From Methanocaldococcus infernus ME (GTDB lineage Archaea; AGJL01; Methanococci; Methanococcales; Methanocaldococcaceae): a stretch of DNA of 64,000 nucleotides. Location: the NCBI RefSeq assembly GCF_000092305.1, contig NC_014122.1, positions 310,001 to 374,000 of the forward strand, in the 5' to 3' direction. The position numbers were made by a program, and so were the translations under genes. Position 1 is the first letter of the stretch; the number at the start of each line of letters is the position of its first letter. Below, one piece after another: positions 34,890 to 47,602 of this stretch. The notes beneath the pieces are model-generated. The model searched no databases, was not told where the DNA came from, and saw only the letters and a list, made by a program, of their open reading frames with translations.

Positions 34890-36866
34890 ATGACAACCCC
34901 AAGAATTGGGGTTTATGTCTGTTACTGTGGGACTAATATTAAAGCTGTTGTTGATTGTGAAGCTGTTAAAGAGTTTGCGGAAAAGTTGGATGGAGTTGTA
35001 GTAGCAAGAACCTACCCATTCATGTGTGCAGATCCAGGGCAAAAGTTGATTCAGGAGGATATAAAGAAGTATAATTTAAATAGAATTGTTGTAGCTGCAT
35101 GTACTCCAAAGATACACGAGCCAACTTTTAGAGCTTGTATAAAAGATGCTGGACTTTCTCCTTACTACTTAGAGTTTGTTAATATCAGAGAGCATGACTC
35201 TTTTGTTCATATGGAGGATAAAGAGGCTGCTACTAAGAAGGCTATGGAGTTAGTTGCTGCAGCTGTTGAAAGAGCTAAGAGATTAGAAGATATTCCTCAA
35301 AAGGTTGTTGAAGTTGAAAAATCCTGTTTAATCATCGGTGGGGGAATTGCTGGGATTCAGGCAGCTTTAGACTTAGCTGATCAAGGTTATAAAGTTTATT
35401 TACTTGAAAAAGAGCCATCCATTGGAGGTAGGATGGCTCAGCTTGCTAAGACATTCCCCACCGATGACTGTGCGCTGTGAATTCTCGCCCCGAAGATGGT
35501 TAGCGTCGCCAACCACCCAAATATTGAAATTATCACTTATGCTGAATTAAAAGAGGTTAGTGGATACATAGGAAACTTTGAAGTCACCATAGAGAAAAAA
35601 CCAAGATATGTTGATGAAAGCAAGTGTACAGGTTGTGGAGCCTGTGCCAGTGTTTGTCCTATTGAAGTGCCTAATGAGTTTGATCTTGGTTTAGGAGTAA
35701 GGAAAGCTATCTATGTCCCATTCCCACAGGCTGTTCCATTGGTTTATACAATAGATATGGATTACTGTATTAAATGTGAGCTCTGTAGTAAAGTCTGTGG
35801 TCCTGGAGCCATAGATTATAACCAAAAACCAGAAGAAATTAAGTTAAAAGTTGGAACTATTATCTGTGCTGTTGGATTTGATGAGTTTGACTGTACATTA
35901 AAAGAAGAGTATGGTTATGGAGTTTATGATAATGTCATTACAACCTTACAATTAGAAAGAATGATTAACCCTGCTGGGCCAACTGGAGGACATGAGATAA
36001 GGCCAAGTGATGGTAAGCATCCTAAGAGAATTCTGTTTATCCAGTGTGTTGGTTCAAGAGACTTAAAGGTTGGAAAGCCATACTGTTCAAGAATCTGTTG
36101 TATGTTTGCCTTAAAGAATGCTCAGTTAATTAAGATGCATGATCCAAGTGCTGAAGTCTATATTTGCTACATGGACATCAGATCCTTTGGAAAAGGTTAT
36201 GAAGAATACTACCAAAGAGCTCAGGAGCAGTTTGGAGTTAGATTTATTAGAGGAAGGCCAGCCTGTATTATTGAGGATCCAGAAACTAAGAACTTGATAG
36301 TTAGAGTTGAAGATACTTTAATTGGAGAAATTCTTGAGTTAGAGGTTGACTTAGTTGTTCTCTCTGCTGGTCTCTCACCAAGACCAGATAACAAGAAGTT
36401 AGCCAAGATGTTAGGATTAGAGCTTAGCCCAGATGGATTCTTTAAGGAGTTACACCCAAAGTTAGCTCCAGTTAATACTAAAGTTGATGGAATAGCCATA
36501 GCTGGAGTAGCCCAAGGGCCTAAGGATATTCCTGATACTGTAGCACAGGCTAAAGGGGCTGCAAGTGCTGTAGCCATTCCAATGGCTAAGGGTAAGTTTG
36601 AAATTGAGATGATTAGAGCTATAGTTGATGAAGAGATCTGTGGAGGCTGTGAGATCTGTGCTCAAGTGTGTCCATACAATGCTATAAGCTATGTTGAAAA
36701 AGATGGACATTTAGTTGCAAGTGTCAATGACATAGCCTGTAAAGGTTGTGGTTCCTGTGTAGCTGCATGTCCAAGTGGAGCCATGCAGTTAAGATACTAT
36801 AGAGATGAGCAAATAATTCCTGCAATAGATGCCATGTTAAAGGTTCACAATGAGTTATCAAAGTAA
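34890..36866 (+). CDS. hdrA: Heterodisulfide reductase subunit A, selenoprotein (UGA = Sec197)
   Basis: Flavin-bifurcating subunit of the heterodisulfide reductase complex: takes electrons from the Vhu hydrogenase and splits them between ferredoxin and CoM-S-S-CoB. 658 residues in one continuous frame if TGA 35478-35480 is read as selenocysteine; both sides align to HdrA without a frameshift. N-terminal Cys-rich domain (CYCG), FAD loop [16 protein letters not shown], Sec in the CAL-U-ILAPKM cluster motif, then four ferredoxin motifs ([47 protein letters not shown]). No GAA/A SECIS is found behind it. The bases after the UGA are unusually GC-rich and perfectly complementary to the RNA at 46184-46217. 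First gene of the cluster. Confidence 0.95.
35488..35519 (+). promoter_or_regulatory. hdrA target site for the proposed trans-SECIS RNA
   Basis: Bases 35488-35509 are a 22/22 perfect Watson-Crick complement of RNA bases 46195-46216, extended by a G-U at 35487/46217. After a small internal loop, 35513-35519 pair 7/7 with 46184-46190. The site begins 7 nt after the Sec UGA. The codons here (CTC GCC CCG ... AGC GTC GCC AAC CAC) are rare in the surrounding AT-rich genes, suggesting selection on the RNA rather than on the protein alone. Confidence 0.85.
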
Positions 36867-36929
36867 ATTTAATTTAGATGAAGCCCTTTATGGGCTGATG
36901 ACTCAAAAAATTTTAATTATGGGGAGAAC

Positions 36930-37356: not shown

Positions 37357-37392
37357 TCCTCCTGGGAACCCTCACCTGAGGGACCAGGGGGA
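37357..37392 (+). promoter_or_regulatory. Archaeal SECIS element of vhuD
   Basis: A 9-bp lower stem (37357-37365 with 37384-37392, one G-U) leads to the diagnostic internal loop GAA (37366-37368) opposite A (37383). The upper stem is CCCTC/GAGGG with loop ACCT. It sits 19 nt behind the vhuD stop, where archaeal SECIS elements direct UGA decoding as selenocysteine through SelB. Confidence 0.93.
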
Positions 37393-39590: not shown

Positions 39591-39731
39591 ATGGTGAAAG
39601 TTATGGAGATGGATAAGGTTAAGTTAAACTTAATTGAGGTTGTACTTAGAGCTTACGATCCTTGATACTCATGTGCAGCTCATATAATTATCAACAAGAA
39701 GAAGAAAAAAGAGGAGAAAAAGAATAAGTAA
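39591..39731 (+). CDS. vhuU: Hydrogenase small peptide VhuU carrying the Sec nickel ligand (UGA = Sec25)
   Basis: 46 codons directly behind the vhuA stop. The peptide contains RAYDP-U-YSCAAH, the DPUxxCxxH equivalent of the C-terminal NiFe ligand motif, with UGA at 39663-39665. A lysine-rich tail follows the His and is probably removed during maturation. Starts at 39603 or 39609 are also possible. Its stop overlaps the first base of the SECIS flank at 39731. Confidence 0.93.
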
Positions 39732-39732
39732 G

Positions 39733-39768
39733 ATCCGCAACCGAACCCTTTTATGGGAGGTTGCGGAT
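39733..39768 (+). promoter_or_regulatory. Archaeal SECIS element of vhuU
   Basis: A perfect 10-bp lower stem ATCCGCAACC/GGTTGCGGAT, internal loop GAA (39743-39745) opposite A (39758), upper stem CCC/GGG with a 6-nt loop TTTTAT. It begins 1 nt behind the vhuU stop and is followed by a T-rich run (39768-39780), which could also act as a terminator. Confidence 0.95.
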
Positions 39769-41054: not shown

Positions 41055-42362
41055 ATGAAAGTTGTAGAAAATGTTGTTTGCCCATTCTGTGGAACTCTCT
41101 GTGATGACATAGTGGTTATCTTAGATGATGAAGGGCACATAATAGGAACAAGAAATGCATGTAGAATAGGGAATGCTAAATTTATGCATTTTGAAGGGGC
41201 TAAGAGATACACTGAGCCAATGATGAGAGAGAACAAAAATGAAGACTTCAAAAAGGTTGATTGGGATACTGCAATAGATGAGAGTGCAAGAATCTTAGCT
41301 GAAGCTAAGCTTCCTCTCTTGTATGGATGGAGTTCAACTGAGTGTCATGCTCAAGCTTATGGAGTAGAGTTAGCAAGAGTCTTAGGAGCTGTTATAGACA
41401 ACACTGCTACCATATGACACGGACCTTCACTAATAGCTGTTCAGGACGTAGGATACCCCGTCTGTACCTTAGGAGAAGTAAAGAATAGAGCTGATCTAAT
41501 CATATATTGGGCTTGTAACCCAATGCACGCCCACCCAAGACATATGTCAAGATATACAACATTTGCAAGAGGATACTTTAGAGAGAGAGGAAGAGAAGAT
41601 AGAACTATAGTAGTTGTTGATCCAAGAGAGACTACAACAGCTAAGTTAGCTGATATACACATAAAGGTAGAGCCCCATAAGGATTATGAGTTAGTTAGTG
41701 CTATGAGGGCTGTATTGCATGGCTTTGAGTTACAAACTGACAGAGTAGCAGGAGTTCCAGCTGATCTTATCTATGATGCTGTTGAACTCTGTAAGAATGC
41801 CCAATTTGGCTGTCTCTTCTTTGGTATGGGAGTGACAATGACAAGAGGAAAGCATAGAAATATAGACAATGCTATTAAATTAGTTGAAGATTTAAATGCT
41901 TATACTAAATTCACCCTAATGCCAATGAGAGGACACTACAATGTTAATGGATTCAACCAAGTTCTAACCTGGATAACAGGATTCCCATTCTGTGTAGATT
42001 TCTCAAGAGGTTACCCAAGATTTAACCCAGGAGAGACTACAGCTATAGACTTACTATTAAGGGGAGAAGTTGACACCATGCTTGTTGTAGCCTCAGATCC
42101 TGGGGCACACTTCCCAGGGAAGGCTTTAGACCATATAGCAAAGATTCCATTAATCTGTGTGGAGCCACATGAAACTCCAACAACTCAGTTAGCTAATATT
42201 ATACTACCTCCAGCACTCTCTGGTGTTGAAGAGGAGGGAACTGCTTATAGAATGGATGGAGTTCCAATAAAGCTTAAGAAAGTAACTGAACCTCCTGAGG
42301 GTGTACTGCCAGATAGAGAGATATTAAAGAGATTAGTTAAGAAGGTTAAAGAATACAAGTAA
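41055..42362 (+). CDS. fwdB: Tungsten formylmethanofuran dehydrogenase subunit B, selenoprotein (UGA = Sec121)
   Basis: Catalytic tungstopterin subunit that reduces CO2 to formate in the first step of methanogenesis (also called fwuB for the Sec form). 435 residues if TGA 41415-41417 is read as Sec: DNTATI-U-HGPSL corresponds to the Cys ligand of tungsten in cysteine forms. An N-terminal [4Fe-4S] motif ([10 protein letters not shown] ... NACRIG) and molybdopterin-binding segments follow. Only 1 nt separates its stop from the convergent HD gene, and no SECIS was found in the spacers on either side of it. Two coding segments behind the UGA (41443-41460, 41525-41537) are perfectly antisense to the RNA at 46184-46229. 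Confidence 0.95.
41443..41460 (+). promoter_or_regulatory. fwdB target site 1 for the proposed trans-SECIS RNA
   Basis: 18/18 perfect complement of RNA bases 46212-46229; it begins 25 nt after the Sec UGA. On the RNA it overlaps the hdrA guide by 5 nt (46212-46216) and also uses the 5' strand of the hairpin at 46219-46243. Confidence 0.85.
41525..41537 (+). promoter_or_regulatory. fwdB target site 2 for the proposed trans-SECIS RNA
   Basis: 13/13 perfect complement (GCACGCCCACCCA) of RNA bases 46184-46196, plus a G-U at 41524/46197. Its order relative to site 1 is antiparallel-consistent, so one RNA can clamp both sites. The 64-nt mRNA loop between them contains a hairpin ATTGGG/CCCAAT (41506-41524) abutting this site. 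Confidence 0.75.
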
Positions 42363-45355: not shown

Positions 45356-46157
45356 GTATAAAAAAAGCTTGGGACAGCATTTTTTAGTGGATAAGAATTT
45401 TGTTTATAAGGCTATAGAAGGAGCTAATTTAAAAGAAGATGATAAAGTCTTAGAGATTGGTTTAGGGAAAGGGATTTTAACAGAAGAGCTTTGTAAGAGA
45501 GCTAAGAAAGTTTATGTGATAGAAATTGACAAGAACTTAGAAAGCTTTGCAAACTCCTTAATAAATAAATATAAGAATTTAAATATAATCTGGGATGATG
45601 CTCTAAAGGTAAATTTAAAAGAAATAGATTATAATAAAGTTGTTGCCAACCTTCCCTATCAAATCTCTTCTCCAATAACCTTTAAGCTCTTAGATAGAGG
45701 CTTTGATCTCTCTGTGTTAATGTACCAATTAGAGTTTGCTAAGAGAATGATAGCCAAGGAAGGGACTAAAGATTATGGAAGATTGTCAGTTTCCCTACAG
45801 GCTCAGGCTAATGCTGAAATCTTATGTAAAGTTCCTCCTTCAGCTTTTTACCCAAGGCCAAAGGTTTGGTCAGCATTGGTTAAGATAGAGCCACACAATA
45901 AATATAAAATTTTAAATAAAGAGTTTTTCAACAACTTAGTAAGAGGAGCCTTCCAACATAGGAATAAGTTCTTAAAGAAGGCTTTAATTTTAAGTAGCTC
46001 TGAACTTGGGTTAAGTAGAGAAGAGTTAAAAAAGATATTGGAGGATATAGAAGATAAAACCTTAGAAAAAAAGGTTTTTAAGGTTTCTGTTGAGGAATTT
46101 GTTAATCTGTCAAATAAATTATATGAATATATAAAAGAAAGAAATAGAAAGGGTTAA
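45348..46157 (+). CDS. rsmA: 16S rRNA dimethyladenosine transferase
   Basis: KsgA/Dim1 enzyme that dimethylates two adjacent adenosines near the 3' end of 16S rRNA. 269 residues: [18 protein letters not shown] loop [14 protein letters not shown], catalytic NLPYQISSP. Its stop overlaps a TATA-like TTAAATA that would suit the noncoding RNA starting about 27 nt later. Confidence 0.95.
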
Positions 46158-46160: not shown

Positions 46161-46243
46161 GAAAACAACTATTACTATATAACTGGGTGGGCGTGCGACG
46201 CTAACCATCTTCGGGGTATCCTACGTCCTTACACGTCGTAGGA

Positions 46244-46279
46244 CCTGGAGGGGAACCCTCACCAGAGGGACCCTCCAGG
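46244..46279 (+). promoter_or_regulatory. SECIS element inside the trans-SECIS RNA
   Basis: Lower stem CCTGGAGGG/CCCTCCAGG (9 bp, perfect), internal loop GAA (46253-46255) opposite A (46270), upper stem CCCTC/GAGGG, loop ACCA. The core from GAA through the upper stem to A differs from the vhuD SECIS in a single loop base. It is 3.8 kb from fwdB and has no selenoprotein gene beside it. Confidence 0.93.
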
Positions 46280-46281
46280 AG

Positions 46282-46294
46282 TTTTTTCTTTTTT
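46282..46294 (+). terminator. T-tract terminator of the trans-SECIS RNA
   Basis: TTTTTTCTTTTTT begins 3 nt after the SECIS stem closes. A T-rich run is the usual archaeal termination signal, and the aminotransferase gene ends just beyond on the other strand. Confidence 0.7.
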
Positions 46295-46309: not shown

Positions 46310-47602
46310 TTATCTTGAATTAAGGAATTCATCAATTTTCTCAGCTAATTTCTCAAGAGTATATTTGAATATATTATCATCTCTCTCCAATAATGTCATC
46401 CTGAACCCATTAAGCTCTGTGCAAAATGAGGTTAGAGGAACTACACATATTCCAGTTGTGGCTAAGAGCTGATATGTAAATTTTTTGTCTAATGTAGTAT
46501 CTTTTAAAAACTTGTTAATAAAGTTTTCAACCTCTTTATCCTCTATTTTTATCTCCCCTCTATCCTTTTCAAAAACCACTGTTGTATAAAAAGAGCCACA
46601 GGTTTTATTTACAACAATATTATCAATATCTTTGAATTTTTTATAAGCTTCATTGCTCCTCTTCTCAAAAAACTTATTTCTCTCTTTTAAATAACTCTTA
46701 TATCTTCTATCTCCCATAATTCTTGGGATAGCCATCTGTGGAAGAGTTGTAGAGCAAACCTCTATTAGCTTAGCCTTATATATACTATTTATATATCTCC
46801 TAAACTCTTCATCCTTATCTGCATTATAAACCTCTATCCAGCCACATCTTGCTCCAGGCCATGGAAGTTCTTTAGAGATTCCTTTTAAAGAGATTCCAGG
46901 GACATCATCTATAACCTCTGATAGAAAACAGGGCTTACAGCCATTATAGACTAAGTTACAATAGATTTCATCACAGATAATAAATAAATTATACTCATTG
47001 GCAATATCTACAATCTCATCCAATATCTTTTTTGGATACACAGCTCCTGTTGGATTGTCAGGGTTTATTATTAAGATGCCACAGATGTTAGGATTGTATT
47101 TAACTCTCTTTTCCAAATCTTCAACATCAGGATACCACTTATTATAAGGATCTAAAAAGTAGGTTAGAGGAGGACATCCAGCATGTGAGCCCTCAGCTGA
47201 TGAGTGGGTTGAGTAGGAAGGAGAGGGATTTATAACCCTAACCTCCCTTCTTAAAAGACCATATATCTTAGCTATAGCATCTCCTAATCCATTAAAAAAA
47301 ATAATGTCTTCCTTTGTTATTTGAACACCTCCTCTTTTATTGTTAAGGTTGGCTAAGAATTCCCTTGTTTCATCTAACCCCTTTGTTGGGCAATAGGCAT
47401 AGCTCTTACTATCTCTCACAAGATCAGCAACTATCTCCTTTATCCAATCTGGAATTTCTTCACCCTTAGCTACAGGGTCTCCAATATTCTCCCAAATAAT
47501 TTTTCTATTAAATTTTTTTTCTATAAATTTGGCAATTTCAACAATCTCCCTAATCTCATAGCTTAATTCTTTAGCTCCTATGTCTATAATGGGCATTCTC
47601 AT
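46310..47602 (-). CDS. PLP-dependent aminotransferase, class I/II
   Basis: 430 residues. The fold-type I pattern is clear: NPSPSYSTHSS, LIINPDNPTGAVYP, ICDEIYCNLVYNG, and the PLP lysine in GISKELPWPGARCGW. Similar methanogen proteins are annotated as alanine- or aspartate-type aminotransferases, but the substrate cannot be fixed. Start ATG 47602 is behind GGTGA, with a second ATG two codons on. Confidence 0.85.
   Translation of the reverse strand: MRMPIIDIGAKELSYEIREIVEIAKFIEKKFNRKIIWENIGDPVAKGEEIPDWIKEIVADLVRDSKSYAYCPTKGLDETREFLANLNNKRGGVQITKEDIIFFNGLGDAIAKIYGLLRREVRVINPSPSYSTHSSAEGSHAGCPPLTYFLDPYNKWYPDVEDLEKRVKYNPNICGILIINPDNPTGAVYPKKILDEIVDIANEYNLFIICDEIYCNLVYNGCKPCFLSEVIDDVPGISLKGISKELPWPGARCGWIEVYNADKDEEFRRYINSIYKAKLIEVCSTTLPQMAIPRIMGDRRYKSYLKERNKFFEKRSNEAYKKFKDIDNIVVNKTCGSFYTTVVFEKDRGEIKIEDKEVENFINKFLKDTTLDKKFTYQLLATTGICVVPLTSFCTELNGFRMTLLERDDNIFKYTLEKLAEKIDEFLNSR

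Follow-up and report, generated by a model that had tools for sequence, protein, structure and literature searches.

A SECIS hairpin detached from its gene: a candidate trans-acting RNA with antisense guides to two selenoprotein mRNAs in Methanocaldococcus infernus

The SECIS hairpin is the RNA signal through which ribosomes decode UGA, otherwise a stop codon, as selenocysteine. A 64-kb stretch (34% GC; hereafter the window) of the complete 1.33-Mb genome of Methanocaldococcus infernus ME (G000) carries such a hairpin between ksgA, which ends at position 46157 (+), and a minus-strand aminotransferase gene (46310–47602). The preliminary description proposed a stand-alone SECIS RNA with antisense guides to the mRNAs of hdrA and fwdB. 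Following up this proposal by comparison with related genomes, we consider it probable that 46184–46294 (+) specifies a short trans-acting SECIS RNA composed of a two-piece antisense 5′ guide and a 3′ SECIS.

The intergenic region is a GC-rich island. The hairpin occupies 46244–46279 (+; strict-scan match 46245–46278, CTGGAGGGGAACCCTCACCAGAGGGACCCTCCAG) and has the GAA/A internal loop, GC-rich apical stem and stable basal stem of methanogen SECIS elements. It is followed by a T-rich tract (46281–46294, +), possibly a transcription terminator judging by its composition. Strict scanning of both strands of the window gave three matches, namely the SECIS elements of vhuD and vhuU and the present one, and no match was obtained in 20 first-order Markov resamples of the window, which confirms the archaeal SECIS in a GC-rich island reported in the preliminary description. 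In a related genome, G002, the stem reads GGGAGG/CCTCCC; that is, it has covaried, with the GAA/A motif and stems intact. When the whole window was compared with Rfam, only two tRNAs reached gathering thresholds and the SECIS RNA locus remained unmatched, also by the box C/D and H/ACA guide RNA families. A tRNA-Sec is present in the M. infernus genome.

The guide region lies 5′ of the hairpin, on the same strand. Positions 46195–46216 (the hdrA guide) are antisense over 22 nt to hdrA 35488–35509 and contain two compensatory pairs relative to other species. Positions 46212–46229 (the proximal fwdB guide, which also covaries) are antisense over 18 nt to fwdB 41443–41460. The outermost 5′ guide, 46184–46196, is antisense over 13 nt to fwdB 41525–41537; its first 7 nt (46184–46190), as read from the sequence, are also antisense to hdrA 35513–35519. 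All four matches (22/22 and 7/7 with hdrA, 18/18 and 13/13 with fwdB) proved exact on recheck, and the order of the segments permits two of them to pair simultaneously with each mRNA. A small hairpin (46219–46225 with 46237–46243, +) is present in predicted folds at both 37 and 85 °C and, in the free RNA, overlaps the fwdB guide; in the 85 °C prediction for the free RNA, both this hairpin and the SECIS remain folded while the hdrA guide is open.

Both targets are selenoprotein genes on the plus strand of the window: hdrA (34890–36866, UGA codon at 35478–35480) and fwdB (41055–42362, UGA codon at 41415–41417). As had been proposed, all target segments are located 3′ of the selenocysteine codons: the main hdrA target (35488–35509, continued at 35513–35519) begins 7 nt past the UGA and the proximal fwdB target (41443–41460) 25 nt past it, with the distal fwdB target (41525–41537) further downstream. 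A search of the 60-nt guide against the whole M. infernus genome at E ≤ 10 returned only the guide itself, hdrA and the two fwdB pieces; thus, at this threshold, only selenoprotein genes are matched. Predicted duplex energies at 85 °C were –21.8 kcal/mol for hdrA and –17.3 kcal/mol for fwdB, compared to –7.0 kcal/mol for the best off-target duplex in the window. Given the exact matches, their genome-wide uniqueness and these energies, chance similarity was ruled out, in agreement with the earlier argument that a chance match is untenable. A copied gene fragment was also rejected, since the segments are interleaved (fwdB-hdrA-fwdB) in the order required for antiparallel pairing, and covary. Separately, a 23-nt, 87% antisense match to the guide was observed in vhuA of another species, G005 (L045:5081-5103), a gene without selenocysteine; it is probably due to chance.

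Of 13 genus relatives, 12 have the element, and none of the other genera searched does; the one relative without it, G004, has a genome that is 86% complete. In ten Methanocaldococcus genomes (G001 and G005–G013) it lies directly 3′ of fwdB, as the 3′UTR SECIS of that gene. In these linked genomes, the operon order is hdrA-vhuD-vhuG-vhuA-vhuU-vhuB-fwdB, and the hdrA target is found in the same operon ~7 kb upstream of the element. The guide is the best-conserved part of the fwdB 3′UTR in linked species, and likewise in genomes where the element is detached. Our comparison thus indicates that the detached RNA descends from the fwdB 3′UTR SECIS. Detachment was found in three genomes of these heat-loving methanogens: in M. 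infernus the element is 3.8 kb downstream of fwdB, beyond a minus-strand gene; in G002 it is ~450 kb from fwdB and flanked by two opposite-strand genes; in G003, a draft MAG, it is on a different contig from fwdB and is preceded by 326 nt of non-coding DNA. Because these three genomes form one clade (support 100/99), their arrangement is most simply explained if the element detached once and then moved. In none of them does the hairpin reside in the UTR of the mRNAs it would serve, and we therefore call the locus, which has all the makings of a SECIS hairpin by structure, a detached, guide-tethered SECIS RNA.

According to the preliminary description, the hdrA and fwdB mRNAs have no SECIS elements of their own. 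No cis element was detected for either gene in M. infernus, G002 or G003, and a hidden one was rejected after scans of the window, G002 and G003. The UGA codons of both genes are retained in all three genomes. Eight of the other genus members with hdrA that were examined have an hdrA 3′ SECIS. In M. infernus, G002, G003, G004 and G011 its GAA/A core has been lost, and what is left is a short AUGA/GA-based stem, represented in the window by a stub at 36873–36907 (+), the base of the ancestral hdrA SECIS with a kink-turn-like AUGA/GA motif. This motif has been noted before (PMC11227280); the persistence of the stub in all five genomes is a separate observation, and it may have another role.

The operon in the three detached genomes retains only the vhuD and vhuU SECIS elements (37358–37391 and 39735–39766, respectively, both +, sharing the operon of hdrA and fwdB in the window), which raises an alternative: these could serve hdrA and fwdB in cis on the polycistronic mRNA, leaving the detached RNA a redundant relic. 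Both elements are intact, SECIS sharing between hdrA and frhD/vhuD has already been proposed (PMC11227280), and distance limits in a reporter were loose (PMC9622424). However, the 3′ regions of vhuD and vhuU have no antisense match of at least 12 nt near the fwdB or hdrA UGA, and in G003 fwdB no longer belongs to the hdrA-vhu operon, being located in a fwdB-mobB-pyrE unit (L282, contig C16) bounded by opposite-strand genes, in which even a relaxed scan of 18 kb around fwdB revealed no SECIS. Nor would a relic be expected to retain 98–100% complementarity via compensatory changes after detachment. We regard this alternative as improbable.

Comparison across Methanocaldococcaceae for compensatory changes had been suggested as a check of the pairing. 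For fwdB, the target and guide were aligned in 23 genomes, in trans in M. infernus, G002 and G003 and in cis elsewhere. Standard pairs were found in 363/368 cells; four columns were double-sided, and as many as four pair types occurred in one column. Among distinct rows, 96.5% of cells were paired, versus 27–43% when partners were slid by 1–3 columns, and none of 500 shuffles matched the observed covariation score. For hdrA, the target and RNA from 12 genomes gave 251/252 standard pairs and three double-sided columns, all in detached genomes (one in G003 and two in M. infernus, the latter being synonymous changes in a Pro and a Val codon); the shuffle control here (15/500) is weak because the set has only three distinct rows. 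The covariation evidence therefore rests mainly on the fwdB set and on the agreement between loci that lie far apart. The latter is illustrated by G003, where CCTGAATCC replaces CCTACATCC in the RNA. This replacement predicted a Val-to-Ser codon change in G003 fwdB, and the gene, found on a separate contig, indeed has GTA changed to TCA, as predicted from the RNA beforehand. In total, the detached clade has seven compensated pairs (three in M. infernus, one in G002 and three in G003), so the suggested check came out in favour of pairing. By conservation of synonymous sites, the hdrA target and the distal fwdB target rank within the top few percent of windows; at the proximal fwdB target such conservation is less striking. 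Judged by sequence, guide-target pairing is under selection. We thus consider it very improbable that the locus is a non-functional DNA relic or a chance similarity, a reading opposed by its genus-wide conservation with the guides as the most conserved part, by covariation and genome-wide specificity, and by the exceptionally conserved synonymous sites at the hdrA and distal fwdB targets.

Measured along the pairing, the UGA-SECIS distance is 33–43 nt for hdrA and 38–41 nt for fwdB, reached via different guide offsets: 7 + ~30 nt in hdrA and 25 + ~15 nt in fwdB, giving ~39 nt in both mRNAs. Median paired distances were 39 nt for hdrA via this RNA and 39–42 nt for fwdB, and those of SECIS elements in cis were 51 nt (hdrA), 46 nt (selD) and 80 nt (vhuD), while linear UGA-SECIS distances span 236 to about 1500 nt. 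Pairing almost always brings the SECIS to ~20–100 nt behind the UGA. This geometry bears on a further alternative, that the RNA controls translation or stability, through antisense regulation or as a duplex roadblock, with the SECIS hairpin merely a stable end. The long duplexes would begin only 7 nt (hdrA) or 25 nt (fwdB) past the UGA, and in M. maripaludis guide flanks cut mRNA ~threefold (PMC11881835). Yet a regulator would not account for paired geometry converging on that of cis SECIS elements, for targets confined to selenoprotein genes, or for an intact GAA/A motif and stems with stem covariation in G002 while hdrA and fwdB have no other SECIS. We hold regulation of this kind to be just as unlikely as service by vhuD and vhuU in cis.

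The pairing of a detached SECIS RNA beside the hdrA and fwdB UGA codons, as first envisaged, is supported by the compensatory changes and the lack of cis SECIS elements, and the following mechanism may be proposed. The guide would pair with hdrA or fwdB mRNA just 3′ of the UGA, so that both mRNAs would have the SECIS held ~39 nt behind this codon, and a SECIS-binding factor would then bring SelB and Sec-tRNA to the ribosome, with the duplex at or near the mRNA entry. Since the hdrA duplex starts 7 nt behind the UGA, near the mRNA entry, it may in addition make the ribosome pause there. Because the RNA has to be displaced as translation proceeds, a bound copy is presumably required for every decoding event. 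In a cis 5′UTR SECIS reporter in M. maripaludis, guide flanks were not required but gave only ~twofold activity per mRNA (PMC11881835); thus, tethering may be helpful without being essential. As to origin, the fwdB 3′UTR SECIS of linked relatives already bears guides to fwdB and also to hdrA, the latter ~7 kb upstream in the operon, and this existing pairing would have let the element leave fwdB without loss of function in the ancestor of M. infernus, G002 and G003. We infer that the element is transcribed as a separate RNA, hybridises in the cell and directs selenocysteine insertion in trans. By their gene layout, the G002 copy between opposite-strand genes and the G003 copy behind 326 nt of non-coding DNA would both need their own transcription; in M. 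infernus, the SECIS RNA may also act from the 3′ end of ksgA mRNA, by read-through.

Guides were also sought at other selenoprotein genes. The hdrA cis SECIS has guides of up to 28 + 17 nt, antisense at UGA+38 and UGA+154, and a two-guide hdrA 3′UTR was seen in several species (L037, L035, L034, L040 and L045). In selD, a 3′UTR guide of 17–21 nt in the genus is located directly after the stop codon and matches UGA+9 to +30, with 239/240 standard pairs and six double-sided columns; we found no description of it in the papers retrieved by our literature search. It was observed at L049 and other selD loci (G000–G013, G016 and G024). The vhuD guide is 13 nt long (UGA+48); in the window, this self-complementary pair (37167–37179/37310–37322) joins a site 48 nt past the second UGA to the end of the coding sequence before the SECIS, and in M. 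infernus it shows a compensatory T-A to C-G change. Guides of fwdB in other genera span 12–26 nt, and those in fdhA 5′UTRs 15–17 nt, matching the published description. The M. infernus fdhA homologue (L208, C1:507707-509683) is without an in-frame UGA, which most full-match relatives in the genus have.

Over all genomes, the mean longest antisense match near the UGA of hdrA, fwdB and selD was 13.8–16.3 nt, against 9.5–10.2 nt elsewhere in the coding sequence and 7.9–8.6 nt on the sense strand. No guide was found in fruA, where the UGA is just 75 nt before the stop codon; similarly, the vhuU UGA (39663–39665) is only 69 nt from its SECIS, so no guide is needed. In mesophilic Methanococcus guides are weak or absent, consistent with the temperature trend of fdhA1 (PMC11881835). 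The survey points to a simple rule, that distal UGA codons have guides and proximal ones do not; in thermophilic Methanococcales, distal SECIS elements generally carry antisense guides.

In a 2026 review, archaeal SECIS elements are assigned to the UTRs of the very genes that they serve (PMC13188914). The preliminary description regarded a guide-bearing SECIS RNA as undescribed. This holds in part: the guide principle has been published for the fdhA1 5′UTR, in cis (PMC11881835), whereas a literature search covering the main text of openly accessible papers brought up neither a natural trans-acting SECIS nor guides in 3′UTR SECIS elements. We think it likely, if slightly less so than the nature of the RNA itself, that a natural guide RNA redefines stop codons here, with a SECIS paired in trans to UGA codons of two unlinked selenoprotein mRNAs and evolution coupled by compensatory changes. 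If true, this would be the first SECIS known to act from a separate RNA, and base pairing could replace linkage between SECIS and UGA, against the usual cis-acting description. The proposal becomes directly testable, as an altered guide should alter the UGA that is served, and it suggests programmable placement of selenocysteine.

Among known systems, the fdhA1 5′UTR SECIS of Methanococcales has the closest architecture: stretches complementary to the coding region border the SECIS and bring it to ~43 nt 3′ of the UGA in cis, the flanks being longer in thermophiles (Peiter et al. 2025, PMC11881835). The detached RNA shares the antisense guide just 3′ of the UGA and the SECIS roughly 40 nt 3′ of it. 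However, the fdhA1 element is on the same mRNA as its one target and is flanked on both sides, while the detached RNA has guides on the 5′ side only, two target mRNAs and a locus of its own. Box C/D and H/ACA guide RNAs are likewise short RNAs combining bipartite antisense guides with a protein-recruiting structure; unlike them, the detached RNA has no Rfam match, targets mRNAs and has a SECIS as its effector domain. An archaeal SECIS in the fwdB 3′UTR was reportedly described by Wilting et al. in 1997. That element is the direct homologue of the detached RNA, with the same hairpin and the same guide sequence, the difference being that in M. infernus, G002 and G003 it is not attached to fwdB. 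Finally, the Asgard hdrA-frhD SECIS is thought to serve two genes with one element, but through adjacency within one mRNA (PMC11227280), whereas the detached RNA would reach its two genes by base pairing across loci.
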